From contig NZ_CP146242.1 of assembly GCF_037039395.1 (NCBI RefSeq), positions 2,491,001 through 2,555,000 of the forward strand: a DNA stretch of 64,000 nucleotides. Reading direction: 5' to 3'. This document shows, piece after piece, positions 12,341-25,444 of this stretch; the stretch's first letter is position 1, and each line of letters begins with the position of its first letter. The stretch is from Agrobacterium vitis (lineage in GTDB: Bacteria > Pseudomonadota > Alphaproteobacteria > Rhizobiales > Rhizobiaceae). The notes under the pieces are model-generated. The model saw only the letters and a program-made list of their open reading frames with translations, was not told where the DNA came from and did not search any database. The position numbers and the translations under genes were made by a program.

Positions 12341-13219
12341 TCAGCCAATCGGAATCAGGTCCACCGCCTGGACGGTCGTGTGGCTGCCATAGCCTTTCAA
12401 AACGCCGATGACAGGCGCGACATCGGAATAGTCACGGCCATAGGCGACGACGACATGGTCGGTGCCGGCGGTGATATTATTGGTCGGGTCAAGCTCGACC
12501 CAGCCGACGGTTTTGCCGCACCAGACCCTGACCCAGGCATGCATGGCGTCGGCGCCTGCCAGCCGTTCCTTGCCTGGCGGCGGAATGGTGCGCAGGAAGC
12601 CGCTGACATAGCCCGAGGGAATGCCGAGGCTGCGCAGCGCCACGATCATGATATGGGAAAAATCCTGGCAGACCCCCTTTTTCAGCGCAAAGGCTTGTTT
12701 CGGGGTGGTATCGACAGTGGTGGCCTTGGGGTCGTATTTGAAATCCTTGTGGATGCGGGCGCAAAGCTGTTCAGCGATTTGGCGCACCGTCATGCCGGGC
12801 TTCACGACGGAGCGGGCATAGGCGGCAATATCGGGGTTTTCAGGCAGCCGTGGGCTCGATCCGGTGAAATGATGCGGGGAGGCTGGCTCCAGAGACCAAT
12901 ATTCGAAAAGCTCGACCGCAAGCCTTTCGGGCAATGGAGAAAAATCCGCGGTGAACGGCTGGCTGTCCACCTGAATACGGGCCTGAAGGCGGATATCCAG
13001 TGTGTCATGGGAAGAACGATAGGCGAAAGTCGTGGTGGGATGCGCGAAAAAATCGGCAAAGCCGGTACGCTCATCCGGCTGCGGCTCGATGGAAATCGAA
13101 CCGGCGATTAGCCTTTGCCGCTCCGGCAGCGAGATCGGCATGATACGCAGGATATGACGTCCGCCAGCGGCCGCCACATCGTAGTCATAGCCCATATGCA
13201 AGGTCAGGTCATACAGCAT
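12341..13219 (-). CDS. Transglutaminase-like cysteine protease family protein
   Basis: 292-residue protein with the bacterial transglutaminase-like N-terminal domain (about 1-110) followed by a transglutaminase/protease core. The presumed catalytic triad is intact: Cys184 in KKGVCQDFSH, His227 in DAMHAWVRVW and Asp244 in ELDPTNN. There is no signal peptide, so it is predicted cytoplasmic. Its start is 19 bp after the ATP-grasp/alpha-E gene stop, so it is the last gene of the three-gene cluster. Families of this kind are thought to hydrolyse or transfer peptide-like amide bonds. The substrate is unknown. Confidence 0.88.
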   Translation of the reverse strand: MLYDLTLHMGYDYDVAAAGGRHILRIMPISLPERQRLIAGSISIEPQPDERTGFADFFAHPTTTFAYRSSHDTLDIRLQARIQVDSQPFTADFSPLPERLAVELFEYWSLEPASPHHFTGSSPRLPENPDIAAYARSVVKPGMTVRQIAEQLCARIHKDFKYDPKATTVDTTPKQAFALKKGVCQDFSHIMIVALRSLGIPSGYVSGFLRTIPPPGKERLAGADAMHAWVRVWCGKTVGWVELDPTNNITAGTDHVVVAYGRDYSDVAPVIGVLKGYGSHTTVQAVDLIPIG

Positions 13220-13237
13220 GGTTGCGTCTTTGCGTGC

Positions 13238-15652
13238 TCATCCGAGATAGGTTTGCGCTAAGAGATCAGACAGCAATTCCAGTTCTTTTTCCAGATGATT
13301 GTAGATCTCAGGCGTCATCATTTCCGGCGTCATCACCGCCACGCTTGAATGCAGCCTGACGGTTTCGCGCAGGAAGCGCGACATTTGGCCGTTGACCTTG
13401 GCATTGGGCAATTGTTCCACTTCATTGTGGATCTCGTTGAGCTGAAACAGGATGGAGCGCGGGTTGAGCGGATCGAGCGCCAGAAGATCGGTCACGGTCA
13501 GATAGGCGGTGTTGACATTATAACGCCGCCGATGGGTCATGACGTTGTCACCGATCTCCAGCAGCATGTCGAGCGCGCCGTCTGGTGCGTCCTGCCCCGC
13601 CATATGACCCAGCAGCCGGGTCATGTGCATGCCACGCTCCAGGTAGCGGCCGATAGCGAGGAACCTCCAGCCGGTGAAGCGATACATGTTTTCATGCACC
13701 AGACCGGCAAAACCCGCCAGCTTGCGCAGCAGGATGGTCATGGCATGCGAGGCGTCGTCGCCCGGCTTGATCTTTTCATGGAAGCGGCGTGCGGTCTTGG
13801 CGAGATCATTCAGTGCCAGCCAGCCATCCGGTGAGAACCGGTCGCGGATATTGCTGGCCGAGTAGACGGCGCTGTTGATATTGCCGAGCAGGCTTTCCGG
13901 CACGCCCTGGTCTGTATTGATGTCCAGCGCTTCGAGATATTCGCTGACAAAGGCCAGAAGCGGCTGTTTCGGATCGGCTGTTTCGGCAAAGCGTGCATTC
14001 CAGGCGCGCAGAATTCTAAGCGCGCCTTCGGCCCGTTCGATATAGCGGCCCAGCCAGAACAGGTTATCGGCGGCGCGGCTGGGCAGGCTGCCCGGCATGT
14101 TGCGGGTAAACTGTTCTTCGGCTGGCAGCAGCGTGATCCGCTCGACCGGCTTGTCGGAAACGATCCACACATCGGCGGCAGATCCGCCAGCCTGCATGGC
14201 CATCGCCGCCACATCGCTGCCGCTGCCGATCCGCCCGAACCCGCCCGGCATGATCTGCCAGCCATCCCTGGTGCGCGCCGCAAACACCCGCAAGCTCATC
14301 GGCCTCGGTTGCAGCCTGCCATCGACCATGGCGGGGGTGGTGGAGAGCGTCACGGCTTCCTGGCCGACCAGCTTGGCACCGTCGGTTTCCAGCCAGCCGG
14401 CAATCGATTGCTGAGCGGTTTCCCGCAAGGTCGCGCCCAGGACCGATTGCCTGTTGTCATCGAAAAACGGCTGGCGCGAATAGGCCGGGCCGATCACCAT
14501 TTTCTCGATATTGTGGGCGACATGGTCGCGCTCCTGCTTCTGCCCGCACCACCATGTGGCAATCGAGGGCAGCAGCAGATCCTCGCCCAGCAGATGCCGA
14601 CAGATGGTGGGCAGGAAAGCCATCAGCGCCCGGGTTTCCAGAATGCCGGAACCGAGTGCGTTGACGAAGGTGACCGCATTGTTGCGCAGCGCCTGCACCA
14701 CGCCCGGTGTGCCGATATGGCTGAGCTGGTTCAGTTCCAGAGGATCGGCAAAGGCCGCATCCAGACGTCGCCACAGCACCCCGATCGGCTTCAGCCCGGC
14801 CACGGTGCGCACCATCACCTTGCCGTTGACCACAGTCAGATCCTCGCCCTCCAGCAGCATGATGCCGAGATAGCGGGCAATATAGGCATGTTCGAAATAG
14901 GTTTCATTGGCCGGGCCGGGGGACAGCACGGCGATCCGGTCATCAGGGCTTTGCTTATGGCCCTGAAGCGCATCACGAAACGCCCCGAAGAACGAGGCAA
15001 GCCGGTGGACATGGGTTTCGGCATAGATGTCGGAAAAGGCCCGGGCCGTCGCCACGCGGTTTTCCAGCGCAAATCCGGCCCCGGAGGGGGCCTGCGTGCG
15101 GTCGGCCAGCACCCACCAGGCGCCATCCGGCCCACGGCCGATCTCGAACGAACAAAAATGCAGGTAATGGCCACCCGCCGGTTTCACCCCGACCAGGGGT
15201 CGCAGAAATTCACCATTGGCGGCAATCAGTGCGGGCGGAATGAAGCCTTCCTGTACCAGCCTGTTATCACTGTAGATATCGGCGACAACCTGTTCCAGCA
15301 ATTCGGCCCGCTGCACCAGCCCGCGCGCCAGAACCTGCCATTCGGCATCGGCGATCAACACCGGAATATGGGAAAACGGCCAGGCCCGCTCGGTGGGACC
15401 GGCAGACCCGTAGGCGCGGTAGAAGACCCCGGCATCGCGCAGATAGCGGTCGGCACGGGCAAAGCGCTCGTGCAATTGCTCTTCATCCATGCCGTTGATG
15501 GCGGCGACGAAATTCTGCCAGACCGGACGGATGTTGCCATCCCGGTCCAGCATTTCATCGGCAGCACCGGGCAAGGCCCGGTAGCCATCGGCAAATGCCG
15601 CTCCGGGGTCTTTTTCCAGCCTGTCCATCTCAATGGCCGTACGCTTGGTCAT
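13238..15652 (-). CDS. Circularly permuted ATP-grasp protein fused to an alpha-E domain
   Basis: 804-residue fusion. The first ~470 residues match the circularly permuted ATP-grasp type 2 family (DUF404/407), with YAETHVHRLASFFGAFRDAL and the ATP-binding SPGPANETYFEHAYIARYLG region. After NMPGSLPSRAADNLFWLGRY begins the helical alpha-E domain (DUF403), which runs to the C-terminus. In many genomes these are two separate genes. ATP-grasp members of this type are predicted amide- or peptide-bond-forming ligases; the alpha-E domain has no assigned activity. I chose the ATG at 15652 because AGGA lies about 6 bp before it; in-frame ATGs also exist at 15658 and upstream. It is cotranscribed with the transglutaminase genes on either side. 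Confidence 0.85.
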   Translation of the reverse strand: MTKRTAIEMDRLEKDPGAAFADGYRALPGAADEMLDRDGNIRPVWQNFVAAINGMDEEQLHERFARADRYLRDAGVFYRAYGSAGPTERAWPFSHIPVLIADAEWQVLARGLVQRAELLEQVVADIYSDNRLVQEGFIPPALIAANGEFLRPLVGVKPAGGHYLHFCSFEIGRGPDGAWWVLADRTQAPSGAGFALENRVATARAFSDIYAETHVHRLASFFGAFRDALQGHKQSPDDRIAVLSPGPANETYFEHAYIARYLGIMLLEGEDLTVVNGKVMVRTVAGLKPIGVLWRRLDAAFADPLELNQLSHIGTPGVVQALRNNAVTFVNALGSGILETRALMAFLPTICRHLLGEDLLLPSIATWWCGQKQERDHVAHNIEKMVIGPAYSRQPFFDDNRQSVLGATLRETAQQSIAGWLETDGAKLVGQEAVTLSTTPAMVDGRLQPRPMSLRVFAARTRDGWQIMPGGFGRIGSGSDVAAMAMQAGGSAADVWIVSDKPVERITLLPAEEQFTRNMPGSLPSRAADNLFWLGRYIERAEGALRILRAWNARFAETADPKQPLLAFVSEYLEALDINTDQGVPESLLGNINSAVYSASNIRDRFSPDGWLALNDLAKTARRFHEKIKPGDDASHAMTILLRKLAGFAGLVHENMYRFTGWRFLAIGRYLERGMHMTRLLGHMAGQDAPDGALDMLLEIGDNVMTHRRRYNVNTAYLTVTDLLALDPLNPRSILFQLNEIHNEVEQLPNAKVNGQMSRFLRETVRLHSSVAVMTPEMMTPEIYNHLEKELELLSDLLAQTYLG

Positions 15653-15668
15653 CTTCATTCCTGCCGAA

Positions 15669-15827
15669 GCATGTCGTCTCCGCAAAACCGTTTCACATTT
15701 TTACGCGACATAGCTTCTTGTTGGCGCATGTCGTTGCCGTAAAACCGTTTCACACTTTTACGCGACATGCTTTCTTGCCGAAGCATGTCGTCTCCGTAAA
15801 ACCGCTACACACTTTTACGCGACATGC
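15669..15827. repeat. Three tandem 57-bp palindromic repeats
   Basis: Three copies start at 15669, 15726 and 15783, exactly 57 bp apart. Each has a 45-bp core bounded by GCATGTCG and CGACATGC, which are perfect 8-bp inverted arms in copies 2 and 3; copy 1 has one change in its right arm. Inside each is a conserved AAAACCG and a CACATTTTT/CACACTTTTA segment. The array fills the whole gap between the DUF2126 gene stop (15828) and the ATP-grasp gene start. The same motif type is dispersed in Rhizobiaceae genomes. In the operon transcript it would form up to three consecutive hairpins. Confidence 0.9.
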
Positions 15828-18800
15828 TTAAATCCCCTGTGGTCGCCGCAAATCCAATGTGTGCGGAAATTCCGGCGAGACGGCTTCCGGCCACAGCGGA
15901 TAAGATCCGGCTGTATGACCCCAGGGTTCGAACCGCGCAAGCCGCCGGGCCTCCGCTTCATTACCATTCACAGGGAAAGTATCATAACTGCGACCACCGG
16001 GATGCGCGACATGATACACACAACCGCCAATCGACCGCCCTGTCCATATATCATAAACGTCGAATGTTAGCGGTGTGTTTACAGGCAGGACCGGATGCAG
16101 GCCCGATGCCGGTTGCCAGGCCTTGTAGCGCACGCCGGCGACGGCCACGCCATTGGTGCCGCTTTTCTTCAGCGGCAGGCGGCGGCCATTGCAGGCAATG
16201 GTGTAACGGTCGGGATTGGCGGTCTCCAGCTTGACCTGCAAACGCTCGACGGAACTATCGACATAGCGCACCGTCCCGCCGATGGCACCTTCCTCGCCCA
16301 TCACATGCCAGGGCTCCAGCGCCTGGCGCAGCTCCAGTTTGCTGTCTTCGTATTCCACCTGTCCGACGAAGGGGAAGCGGAATTCGAGCTGGGCTGCAAA
16401 CCATTCCGGCTTGAAATCGAAACCGTGTTCGCGCAGGTCGGCCAGAACTTCGAGGAAATCCTGCCAGAGATAATGCGGCAGCATGAAGCGGTCGTGCAGC
16501 GCCGTGCCCCAGCGCACGAAATTTCCGCCGATCGGGTTCTTCCAGAACCGTGCGATCAGCGCCCGCACCAGCAATTGCTGGGCCAGCGACATGCGGGCAT
16601 TCGGCGGCATTTCAAAGCCACGGAATTCGACCAGACCCAGTCTGCCTGTCGGCCCGTCCGGCGAGAACAGCTTGTCGATGCAGATTTCCGAGCGATGGGT
16701 GTTGCCGGTGACATCGGTCAGCAGGTTGCGAAACAGCCGGTCGACCAGCCAGGGCAGGGGCGGCAGAGTTCCATTGCCCGGCATGGGGATCTGGGCCAGG
16801 GCGATTTCCAGCTCATAGAGCGTATCATGGCGGGCCTCGTCAAAGCGCGGCGCCTGGCTGGTCGGGCCAATGAACATGCCCGAGAACATGTAGGACAAAG
16901 CCGGATGGCGCTGCCAATGCAGGACCAGGCTTTTCAGCAGATCCGGGCGGCGCAGGAACGGGCTGTCGCCGGGATTGGCGCCGCCAACCACCACATGGTT
17001 GCCACCGCCGGTGCCGGTATGACGACCGTCGATCATGAATTTGTCGGCGCCAAGCCGCGTCTGGCGAGCCTCTTCATAGATGATATCGGTGGTGGCCACG
17101 CAATCCTGCCAGCTATCGGCGGGGTGGATATTCACCTCGATAACGCCTGGATCGGGCGCGACGCGGATGACATTTATGCGCTCGTCCTGCGGCGGGGCAT
17201 AGCCTTCGATGTGGATCGGCAGGCCAAGATTGCGCGCGGCGGTCTCGGCGGCGGCAACCAGTTCCAGATAGTCCTCGATCCGCTCCACCGGCGGCATGAA
17301 CACGCAGAGCCGGCCATCGCGCGGCTCGACGCTCATCGCCGTGCGCACCGCGCCGGTGATATCCCCAGCCGATCCGGCAATATTCTGTTCGTTGCGGTCC
17401 TGCTGAGTATCGCTGGTCTTGCGCGAGGCTTCCGACAGCGCCCGGCCTTCGCGAGTATCCGGGCCGAAATCCGGCAGAGGCGCACGCGGAATGGACGGGT
17501 CAGCCGTGTGGATATAGGGATATTGCGAGGGCGGCACATAGGGCAGGGTGCCGAGCGGCATACGAAAGCCGACGGGACTGTCGCCTGGAATGAGGAAGAT
17601 CTTGCCGCGCCGGGTGCGCCATTTCTCGCTGATCCAGCGTCGCCCGCTGGCCTTGGCGTTCCAGGCCTGGACCGGCAGGATATAGCCGGTCGGGATCGTC
17701 AAGCCGCGCTCGAACACCTTGGCGATGCGGGCGCGCTCTTCGGGGCTTTCCAGCTTGGAATTGGACGGATCGACATTTTCCGGCAGGCTGCCTTCCTTGA
17801 TGATCCAGGCTGCGGGATCTTCATAGGCCGGCAGGATCATGTCAGGCTCGATCTCTAGCTCGGTGGCAATGCCGGCCATCAGCGCCTCGGCTTGCTCGTG
17901 GCTCACATTGGTATCGGCCTGTTCGGTGGCGATCAGGTCTGGATTATGCCAGATCGGCTTGCCATCCTTGCGCCAGTAGAGCGAGAACGTCCAACGGGGC
18001 AGGCTTTCCCCCGGATACCATTTGCCCTGGCCGTAATGCAGGAAGCCACCGGGCGCAAAGCGGGTGCGCAGTTTTCGGATCAATTGATCGGCCAGTGCCC
18101 GCTTGGTCGGGCCAACCGCATCGGTATTCCATTCCGCCGACTGGAAATCGTCGATCGACACGAAGGTCGGCTCGCCGCCCATGGTCAGGCGCACGTCATG
18201 GGCTTTCAGATCGCCATCGACCTTCAGGCCAAGCGCGTTCAGCGCCTCCCAGCTTTCATCGGAAAACGGCTTGGTGATGCGCGGATGCTCGGCAACCCGT
18301 GTCACCTTCATATCGAAATCGAAATCGGTCTTCGCTTCACCGAAATAGCCGCCGGAAATCGGCGCGGCATTTTTGTAATGCGGCGTGGCGGCCAGCGGAA
18401 TATGGCTTTCGCCGGTCATCAGGCCGGAGGTCGGGTCCAGGCCAATCCAGCCGGCGCCGGGAATATAGGCTTCCGCCCAGGCATGCAGGTCGGTGAAATC
18501 CACCTTGGTGCCGGAAGGCCCATCGAGCGCTTCCAGATCCGGCTTCAGCTGGATCAGATAGCCGGAGACGAAGCGGGCGGCAAAGCCCAGATGCCGCAGA
18601 ATCTGCACCAGCAGCCAGCTGGTATCGCGGCAGGAGCCGCGCGCCGAAGTCAGCGTTTCATCCGGTGTCTGCACGCCCGGCTCCAGGCGGATCACATAGC
18701 CGATTTCGCTTTGCAGGCGGGCATTGAGCCCGACGATCATATCGACGGTGCCCTGGCCGGGCGTCATGTCCAGGGTCTTGAGATAGGCGTCGAGGGCGGG

Positions 18801-19172
18801 GCTGTCCGGCTCTGGTTTCTTGTAGATCGCCAGATCCTCGCGGATATCCTCCGGGTATTCGAAGGGCCAGGTGACGGCCTCTTCCTCCGTGAAGAAATCG
18901 AAGGGATTGTAGATGCTCATATCGGCGGTGAGATCGACCTCGATCTTGAACTCGGTGACCGGGTCGGGAAACACGAAGCGGGCCAGATAGTTGCCGTAAG
19001 GGTCCTGCTGGAGATTGACGAAGTGGTTTTCAGGCGTAACCTTGAGGGAGTGGCTCAGAACCTTGGTTCTGGAATGGGCCGCCGGTTTCAGGCGAATGAT
19101 CTGCGGCCCCAGGCGGATCGGCGTGTCATATTTATAATGGGTGAGATGATAAATGCTTGCCTTGATCGCCAT
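15828..19172 (-). CDS. Large transglutaminase-like protein with DUF2126
   Basis: 1114-residue protein and the first gene of the three-gene cluster. Residues 1-105 form the bacterial transglutaminase N-terminal domain. A transglutaminase core follows with Cys181 ([10 protein letters not shown]), His230 ([10 protein letters not shown]) and Asp246 (GLDPTSG). From about residue 340 to the end is the long DUF2126 region, beginning [17 protein letters not shown] and including [14 protein letters not shown] and a late [19 protein letters not shown] segment. I chose the ATG at 19172, which has GAGGGG upstream and starts the family sequence [16 protein letters not shown]; the in-frame extension to 19295 looks spurious. 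No signal peptide is seen. DUF2126 is thought to be a glutamine-synthetase-like or amidoligase-related domain; its reaction is not established. Confidence 0.88.
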
Positions 19173-24463: not shown

Positions 24464-24491
24464 ATAATATTTTGCATTGCACAAATGTCAA
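24464..24491 (-). promoter_or_regulatory. Sigma-70-type promoter of the mmgR sRNA
   Basis: On the minus strand a consensus TTGACA (24491-24486) is followed by a 16-bp spacer and TATTAT (24469-24464). This places transcription start near 24456-24457, exactly at the base of the first sRNA hairpin. Confidence 0.8.
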
Positions 24492-24670: not shown

Positions 24671-25444
24671 ATGCGCCCCGACAAGACGTTTTTCGACAGC
24701 CTCGCCGAGGCCGCCAAGGCCGAGACCCTGCCACGCTTTCGCTCAATGCTGGATGTCGTCAACAAGGATGCGGGCGGCTATGATCCCGTCACCGAAGGCG
24801 ATAAGGCGGCGGAAACCGCGATCCGCGTGCTGATCGAGGCCAAGTTTCCTGATCACGGCATTCTGGGCGAGGAACATGACAATATCGGCCTTGGCCGCGA
24901 TTGCGTCTGGGTGATTGATCCGATCGATGGAACGCGGGCGTTCATTTCCGGTCTGCCCACCTGGGGAACACTGATCGGTTTTCAGGAACACGGTCATGCG
25001 GTGATGGGCATGATGGACCAGCCTTTTACCGGCGAGCGTTATTTTGCCGATGGGGAGAAAGCCTGGTACAGCGGGCCGGATGGCCAGCGGCAGATCACAA
25101 CGCGGGCCTGCACCGGCCTCGCGGATGCGGTGCTTTACACCACCTCACCGGATATTTTTCTGGAAGACGAGCGGCCGCGTTTCGATGCGGTGCGGGCCAA
25201 GGTGCGGCTGACCCGCTATGGCGTGGATTGCTATGCCTATGCGCTGCTGGCGGCAGGCTTTGTCGATCTGGTGATCGAAACGGGGCTGAAGCCTTATGAT
25301 GTCGGCGCACTGATCCCGATCATCGAGCAAGCAGGCGGGGTGATCACCACCTGGGACGGAGGCCGCCCGGAAGCCGGTGCCAAGATCATCGCGGCAAGCT
25401 CCATCGCGGTTCATCAGCAGGCACTGGCAATTCTGGCGGGGTGA
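24671..25444 (+). CDS. hisN: Histidinol-phosphatase, inositol-monophosphatase family
   Basis: Mg-dependent phosphatase of the IMPase superfamily, most similar to the HisN histidinol-phosphatases of Actinobacteria and Alphaproteobacteria (penultimate steps of histidine synthesis). The 257-residue protein has the metal-binding motifs GEEHDN, DPIDGTRAFISG and the C-terminal PYDVGALIPIIEQAGG. The residues GTRAFISG after DPIDG fit HisN rather than SuhB (GTTNF). The ATG at 24671 follows CGAGGAAG. It may also act on other sugar phosphates. Confidence 0.85.
   Translation: MRPDKTFFDSLAEAAKAETLPRFRSMLDVVNKDAGGYDPVTEGDKAAETAIRVLIEAKFPDHGILGEEHDNIGLGRDCVWVIDPIDGTRAFISGLPTWGTLIGFQEHGHAVMGMMDQPFTGERYFADGEKAWYSGPDGQRQITTRACTGLADAVLYTTSPDIFLEDERPRFDAVRAKVRLTRYGVDCYAYALLAAGFVDLVIETGLKPYDVGALIPIIEQAGGVITTWDGGRPEAGAKIIAASSIAVHQQALAILAG

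Follow-up and report, generated by a model that had tools for sequence, protein, structure and literature searches.

Operons encoding an amidoligase, an Alpha-E domain and a transglutaminase (TGase) were predicted by Iyer et al. (2009; via PMC5666114, PMC6376114 and PMC3597751). The ATP-grasp protein encoded in a Yersinia Anbu operon liberates phosphate from ATP in vitro, an observation that, as its authors state, does not distinguish ligation from hydrolysis (PMC6376114). Here, we analyze a three-gene operon of Agrobacterium vitis that belongs to this widespread, previously predicted and biochemically unsolved system. The window, i.e. the whole stretch of DNA analyzed, comprises 64,000 nucleotides (contig NZ_CP146242.1, positions 2,491,001 to 2,555,000). 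The operon encodes a large TGase-DUF2126 protein (P0003), a circularly permuted (CP) ATP-grasp–Alpha-E fusion (P0002), and a small TGase-fold protein. We report that the ATP-binding half of the fused ATP-grasp is degenerate, which shifts the search for a ligase to DUF2126, and that a PhaR-like element is present upstream of the operon.

Related operons respond to nitrogen. In Burkholderia cenocepacia, the genes for an ATP-grasp, a DUF403 protein, a TGase and a large TGase are common targets of NtrC and sigma-54 (PMC5491218). In Pseudomonas putida, PP_2688 and PP_2685 are up-regulated on nitrate versus ammonium; the isolated promoter of PP_2688 was induced 3.7-fold under nitrogen limitation and that of PP_2685 was unresponsive (PMC8050072). 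In PMC7801951, the first strain column shows PP_2686 to PP_2688 up 11- to 15-fold. Anbu was also up in nitrogen-limited P. putida, expression of the operon was unchanged under various other conditions, and the operon was non-essential in the absence of stress (PMC5666114). These domains are associated with urea genes in marine metagenomes (PMC3597751), and nodule competitiveness in Sinorhizobium meliloti has been linked to a regulatory region belonging to a COG2308 (ATP-grasp) gene (PMC8407117). The accessible parts of a Caulobacter NtrC study (PMC10274813) and of an S. meliloti transcriptome study of polyhydroxybutyrate (PHB; PMC5596199) contain nothing on these genes.

Loss of ATP-binding residues in the fused ATP-grasp

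P0002 matches the Pfam families CP_ATPgrasp_2 (458.5 bits; ATP-grasp residues 108–486, numbered from a TTG start) and Alpha-E (202 bits; residues 534–814), as well as the structure 3n6x (E 9.7e-71). The ATP-grasp label given in a preliminary description of this DNA therefore stands as a family assignment, but not as a statement that the ATP-binding half is functional. We take the lysine, the glycine loop, D423 and K462 to be ATP-binding residues from the ATP-grasp fold, in agreement with the alignment to 3n6x, and D195 and E208 to be the acidic metal-binding residues. Seventy-two fused sequences were aligned with 31 rows of standalone ATP-grasps (30 distinct, L001 and L033 being identical). 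K363, G369, G370, Y371, G372, D423, and K462 were present in 31/31 standalone rows. In the fused class, the position of the ATP-binding lysine was occupied by G (42 sequences), A (11), E (8), S (7), D (3) or R (1), and never by K (0/72). The glycine loop was scrambled, individual glycine positions being conserved in 9 to 18 of the 72 sequences, and the strict SGGYG pattern was found in 0/72 fused versus 24/30 standalone sequences. D423 was mostly replaced by S, V or T, and K462 by A (67/72). Thus, the lysine and the glycine-rich loop expected of active ATP-grasp ligases are absent from the fused class, whereas the acidic residues are retained (D195 in 71/72, E208 in 72/72), together with R210 (72/72). 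The preliminary description had inferred ligation by the ATP-grasp part, an assignment left unsupported by these losses.

Divergence extended beyond the ATP-binding site. Columns invariant in the standalone class (type I) were kept in at least 90% of the fused sequences at 37/69 positions of the first part and 12/44 of the ATP part, and in fewer than 10% at 21/69 and 22/44 positions, respectively. The first part of the fused ATP-grasp has therefore also changed, since 21 of its 69 invariant columns were nearly lost. A second sample comprised 59 loci around DUF2126, including that of the window; an ATP-grasp sequence was obtained from 53 of them, and in 50 it extended to the site. These loci stop too soon to tell whether each ATP-grasp is fused. 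Both the lysine and the GGYG loop were found only in L061, which scores as standalone-type (465 versus 258 bits). Lysine was otherwise present in L040, L054, and L063, and arginine in L038, L057, and L059, the latter with a partial SGGRG loop. The two classes separated (support of 1.0 and 0.59) in a midpoint-rooted FastTree phylogeny that included 30 standalone sequences and 24 from the fused set of 72. The residue pattern fits a progressive loss of ATP binding, and the ATP-grasp, the named engine of the system, is probably dead in this subfamily.

DUF2126 as the candidate ligase

P0003 contains Bact_transglu_N (residues 6–83), Transglut_core (145–247) and DUF2126 (PF09899, a 'putative amidoligase' in Pfam; residues 279–1109), the latter matching with 1352.6 bits for a curated cut-off of 27. 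In an alignment of 16 sequences, 15 of which are 53–76% identical to P0003, the region 605–985 was strictly conserved and contained the motifs E-V-N, K-F-x-x-D-G-x-H-x-G-T-G-G-G-N-H, and E-x-R-x-F-E-M-P-P. Departures from the second of these motifs were few (e.g. L061 and L064). Degeneracy of the active sites, which the preliminary description had considered incompatible with its proposal, was found for the ATP-grasp; at the level of sequence it does not apply to DUF2126, whose motifs are invariant or nearly so. Because the companion ATP-grasp is degenerate, DUF2126 rather than P0002 appears to be the better candidate for the ligase, possibly with a glutamine-synthetase-like fold. The loop ending in G-T-G-G-G-N-H is reminiscent of the glutamine synthetase ATP motif; a local alignment of DUF2126 to Escherichia coli GlnA fell at this loop and was not significant. 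In the literature searched, no paper matched DUF2126 or COG4196 and one, a leprosy genome comparison, matched PF09899, yet 63 of the 200 genomes surveyed across the phylum encode this family (see below).

Both TGases have intact Cys-His-Asp triads at the residues initially proposed, C181/H230/D246 being invariant in 60/60 aligned large proteins and C184/H227/D244 in 33/33 small TGases. From family membership, both triads are expected to be catalytic.

Conservation of the gene set and candidate partners

Genome contigs were scanned with a profile of 16 members. Of at least 593 matching stretches, 592 were confirmed as relatives. The 80 best were analyzed, and these are accordingly the nearest relatives rather than a random sample. 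All but one (79/80) were titled Alphaproteobacteria, L167 being labelled Arenimonas. The fused gene adjoined the TGase-DUF2126 gene in 73/80 loci, and the small TGase gene was also present in 71/80. Among the seven loci lacking the fused gene, the sequence stopped within 0.6 kb in L144 and L149; L124, L125, L136, L153, and L171 lack it at this place. The small TGase gene was additionally absent from L108 and L120, whose sequence stops early. Median intergenic distances among relatives were 6 nucleotides for the first gap (n = 71) and 3.5 for the second (n = 68). The predicted open reading frames and domains being present, these data bear out the co-directional operon of the preliminary description.

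DUF2126, Alpha-E, and PF15887 were also surveyed in 200 genomes drawn evenly across the phylum. Alpha-E was detected in 112/200 genomes, including all those with DUF2126 (63/63), so that co-occurrence, on which the preliminary description also depended, was strongly confirmed. In the 42 of these 63 genomes for which coordinates were entered, Alpha-E was located within 8 kb of DUF2126 in 39, and 19 had two Alpha-E copies in that range. Among viral contigs, 29 pattern matches included no relative.

The genome of the window contains a second set (L033:7143-10338) consisting of standalone genes for an ATP-grasp with intact residues, an Alpha-E protein, and a TGase, with neither Anbu nor DUF2126 alongside and no PhaR-like core within 300 nucleotides upstream. 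In L121 (6411-16808), standalone and fused sets are adjacent. Such adjacency, in L121 and in the 200-genome survey, suggests that the two sets work together. The genome of the window also carries, on a different contig (L035, 1489-2382), a lone TGase-fold gene that adjoins a diguanylate-cyclase-like gene as read by eye.

The clustering of CP-ATP-grasp, Alpha-E, and TGase typical of the system of Iyer et al. is present here; Anbu, a frequent but not universal fourth partner, was not detected beside either set. The genome has a single PF00227 match, away from both sets, which is presumed to be HslV. The neighborhood survey proposed in the preliminary description did reveal a partner, a zinc-ribbon metallopeptidase (PF15887) encoded beside the operon in 8/80 loci (grouping by BLAST, one of the eight being confirmed by Pfam). 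PF15887 was found in 29/200 genomes, of which 19 were positive for DUF2126 and 28 for Alpha-E (Fisher p of 4.7e-5 and 2.5e-7, respectively, values inflated by counting related genomes as independent). In the genome of the window, the PF15887 gene is unlinked to the operon (L182, 6506-9903) and adjoins genes for PhyR and an HWE histidine kinase, and is thus possibly near a general stress control locus. In L136 and L144, a PF15887-type peptidase neighbors TGase-DUF2126; L136 has no ATP-grasp–Alpha-E gene beside it and L144 ends too soon to tell. The two genes of L136 are a possible minimal pair.

A PhaR-like element upstream of the operon

Alignment of 13 upstream regions revealed a best-conserved stretch, which in the window has the form TTGC-N11-GCATTGCACAA. 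Its TGCATTGCA core starts 64 nucleotides before the first ATG of the TGase-DUF2126 gene, and the genome contains a single instance of the spaced pattern TTGCNNTN8GCANTGCACAA. The core matches the operator core of S. meliloti PhaR/AniA, YGCRNYGCR, and the S. meliloti phaP2 promoter, which is efficiently bound by PhaR, contains TTTTATTGCATTGCACACTGA (PMC12542648). Counts were performed on the 300 nucleotides upstream of the operon in 79 sequences, the window and the related loci (excluding L112 and L170, which lacked upstream sequence); these are related and not independent. TGCANTGCA was present in 16/79 regions, as compared to a mean of 0.45 and a maximum of 2 in 20 shuffles, and the looser YGCRNYGCR in 40/79 (shuffle mean 17.45, maximum 24). 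A CTTGC context was common to 12 of the 16, with the core starting 50–76 nucleotides before the ATG; the other contexts were those of L108, L115, L126, and L173. In the second sample, TGCANTGCA was found in 29/56 regions, the window's own locus (L007) being counted and L026, L053, and L066 left out. L115 was the only one of the tested Mesorhizobium loci (L110, L113, L114, L115, L117, and L147) to contain TGCANTGCA, in its other context, and the motif was absent from S. fredii L106. Promoter sites for sigma-54, NtrC, EcfG, and RpoH upstream of the operon were at shuffle level.

PhaR is encoded in the genome of the window. Of three phasin-family matches, two exceed the cut-off and both carry the motif. 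L190 has one core, 43 nucleotides before the ATG; this single site could be due to chance because the loose core also occurs in about 17/79 shuffled regions. L191 has two copies, 18 nucleotides apart, directly before the likelier ATG (start read by eye). PHB builds up under nutrient imbalance with excess carbon (PMC12542648), and PhaR-type control would then read, by another route, a state related to that sensed in the NtrC-controlled relatives. In the lineage of the window, the operon is probably repressed by PhaR and would be released when PHB granules form.

A second copy, TGCATTGCACAA, is located about 190 nucleotides upstream of an inositol monophosphatase gene, which may be another, possible target of PhaR.

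Organization of the locus

The genes are in the order TGase-DUF2126, CP-ATP-grasp–Alpha-E, small TGase. The upstream neighbor on the same strand encodes a mannose-1-phosphate guanylyltransferase-like protein, and the operon is followed by a gene encoding a Tad/VWA-domain protein and by genes of a glycogen cluster. Three direct repeats widen the first intergenic gap. By eye, comparable repeats occur at the same place in the close relatives L004, L005, and L010, and not in L003; four weaker partial matches to the repeat are present elsewhere in the genome. The TTG start of P0002 in the list of open reading frames (15685) falls inside a repeat, and an ATG at 15658 or 15652 appears likelier by eye. 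A PADLOC search for defense systems gave no match at E 0.001, and an NCBIfam search gave no matches.

Table 1. Positions, in window numbering, of the operon, its promoter element, and related features.
Feature	Position	Strand	Remarks
Small TGase-fold protein	12341-13219	minus	292 aa; triad C184/H227/D244; Bact_transglu_N and Transglut_core (Pfam)
CP ATP-grasp–Alpha-E fusion (P0002)	13238-15658	minus	ATP-binding half degenerate; D195, E208, R210 retained
Three direct repeats	15658-15825		54 nucleotides each, 57-nucleotide spacing; occupy the first intergenic gap
TGase-DUF2126 large protein (P0003)	15828-19172	minus	1114 aa; candidate ligase
Conserved promoter element TTGCTTTATTTCTGTGCATTGCACAA	19225-19250	minus	26 nucleotides
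Second TGCATTGCACAA copy	24470-24484
Inositol monophosphatase gene	24671-25444

Proposed function and alternatives

The PhaR-like element, the PF15887 neighbor, and the published NtrC control of relatives together suggest a function in nitrogen/carbon balance. We tentatively propose that the operon is a cytoplasmic 'type II' set for amide-bond metabolism, with DUF2126 as the ligating component, devoted to this balance; this is the most plausible of the readings considered here while falling just short of probable. DUF2126 would be an ATP-dependent amidoligase that couples a probably glutamate-like carboxylate to an amine or a peptide, and the TGase domains would hydrolyze or transfer the resulting (iso)amide bond. 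Without being catalytic itself, the degenerate ATP-grasp–Alpha-E protein would be a subunit that binds substrate, serves as a scaffold, or regulates, and the intact standalone set (L033), of a kind adjacent to the operon in many genomes, may work with it. Nitrogen would be stored, tagged, or scavenged in the form of peptide-like conjugates under conditions of excess carbon and scarce nitrogen, on relief of the probable PhaR repression by granule formation. The PhaR-like promoter and the nitrogen control in relatives indicate the culture conditions under which a product would be expected. In a more elaborate version that we regard as very doubtful, granules would pull PhaR off the promoter, and DUF2126, with the pseudo-ATP-grasp–Alpha-E protein as an allosteric or carrier subunit, would make a new nitrogen reserve or tag of peptide-like nature, later dismantled by the TGases and the zinc metallopeptidase.

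Several observations weigh against the DUF2126-based proposal. For this kind of system, no reaction, substrate, or product has been established (PMC5666114, PMC6376114), as the preliminary description had correctly noted along with the earlier prediction of such systems. The glutamine-synthetase-like character of DUF2126 derives from Pfam's label, and a profile comparison of DUF2126 with eight members of the glutamine synthetase family did not reach significance or outperform a reversed control. The five relatives that lack the fused gene beside TGase-DUF2126, and the divergence of the fused ATP-grasp outside its ATP-binding half, also count against it. As to regulation, the full form of the PhaR-like element is missing from the tested Mesorhizobium loci, looser forms occur in the window at chance level (8 found, 6.98 expected), and the element deviates by eye from the 21-nucleotide PhaR consensus at two arm positions; deviations from the consensus are also seen among the sites of PMC12542648. 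The text of that S. meliloti PhaR study does not contain 'transglutaminase', and the table consulted does not include this operon; one ATP-grasp protein, SMb21227, is given there as affected by PhaR. Finally, the P. putida Anbu gene PP_2685 was up only 1.12-fold in one column of PMC7801951.

The alternatives differ in the component to which they assign activity. A purely degradative or transfer system, with the TGases acting as peptidases or amidases in nitrogen scavenging and both ligase-like domains being regulatory, would suit the presence of two TGases in the operon, the peptidase neighbor (alone with TGase-DUF2126 in L136), and the nitrogen response of related operons. We nevertheless consider it unlikely, although the best of the alternatives, since the DUF2126 region is conserved as strictly as an active enzyme. 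The fused ATP-grasp would instead be the active ligase, its product being processed by the TGases, if the clear family assignment, the retention of D195, E208, and R210, and the K or R of some distant ATP-grasps near DUF2126, such as L059 with its partial loop, were given full weight; absence of the lysine and loop from the entire fused class, together with the loss of D423 and K462, makes this distinctly unlikely. Behind both ranks tagging of proteins or peptides by a pupylation-like logic, with a protease acting on the tagged material. This hypothesis has been published for the Anbu operon (PMC5666114, PMC6376114), and a PF15887 metallopeptidase is encoded in this genome, but no Anbu was detected (leaving the presumed HslV as the sole PF00227 match) and in a published Anbu pull-down none of the operon proteins emerged as a specific partner. 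We find tagging improbable and retain, tentatively, DUF2126 as the ligating component.

Comparison with known systems

DUF2126 is akin to the glutamine synthetase/gamma-glutamylcysteine ligase superfamily by its Pfam label and its loop, but differs in that the profile comparison was not significant. With the operons of Iyer et al., the window shares the association of ATP-grasp, Alpha-E, and TGase without an established reaction; it differs in the ATP-grasp–Alpha-E fusion, the degenerate ATP site, the added TGase-DUF2126 protein, and the absence of a detected Anbu. The standalone L033 set combines the same three domains in one operon, but as separate genes, with intact ATP-grasp residues and with neither DUF2126 nor a PhaR-like core. 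The I35_5080-5083 region of B. cenocepacia, like the window, clusters genes for an ATP-grasp (DUF404/407), DUF403, a TGase, and a large TGase, the latter likely carrying DUF2126. In that cluster, in contrast to the window, the ATP-grasp and DUF403 are encoded by separate genes and expression depends on NtrC and sigma-54 (PMC5491218).

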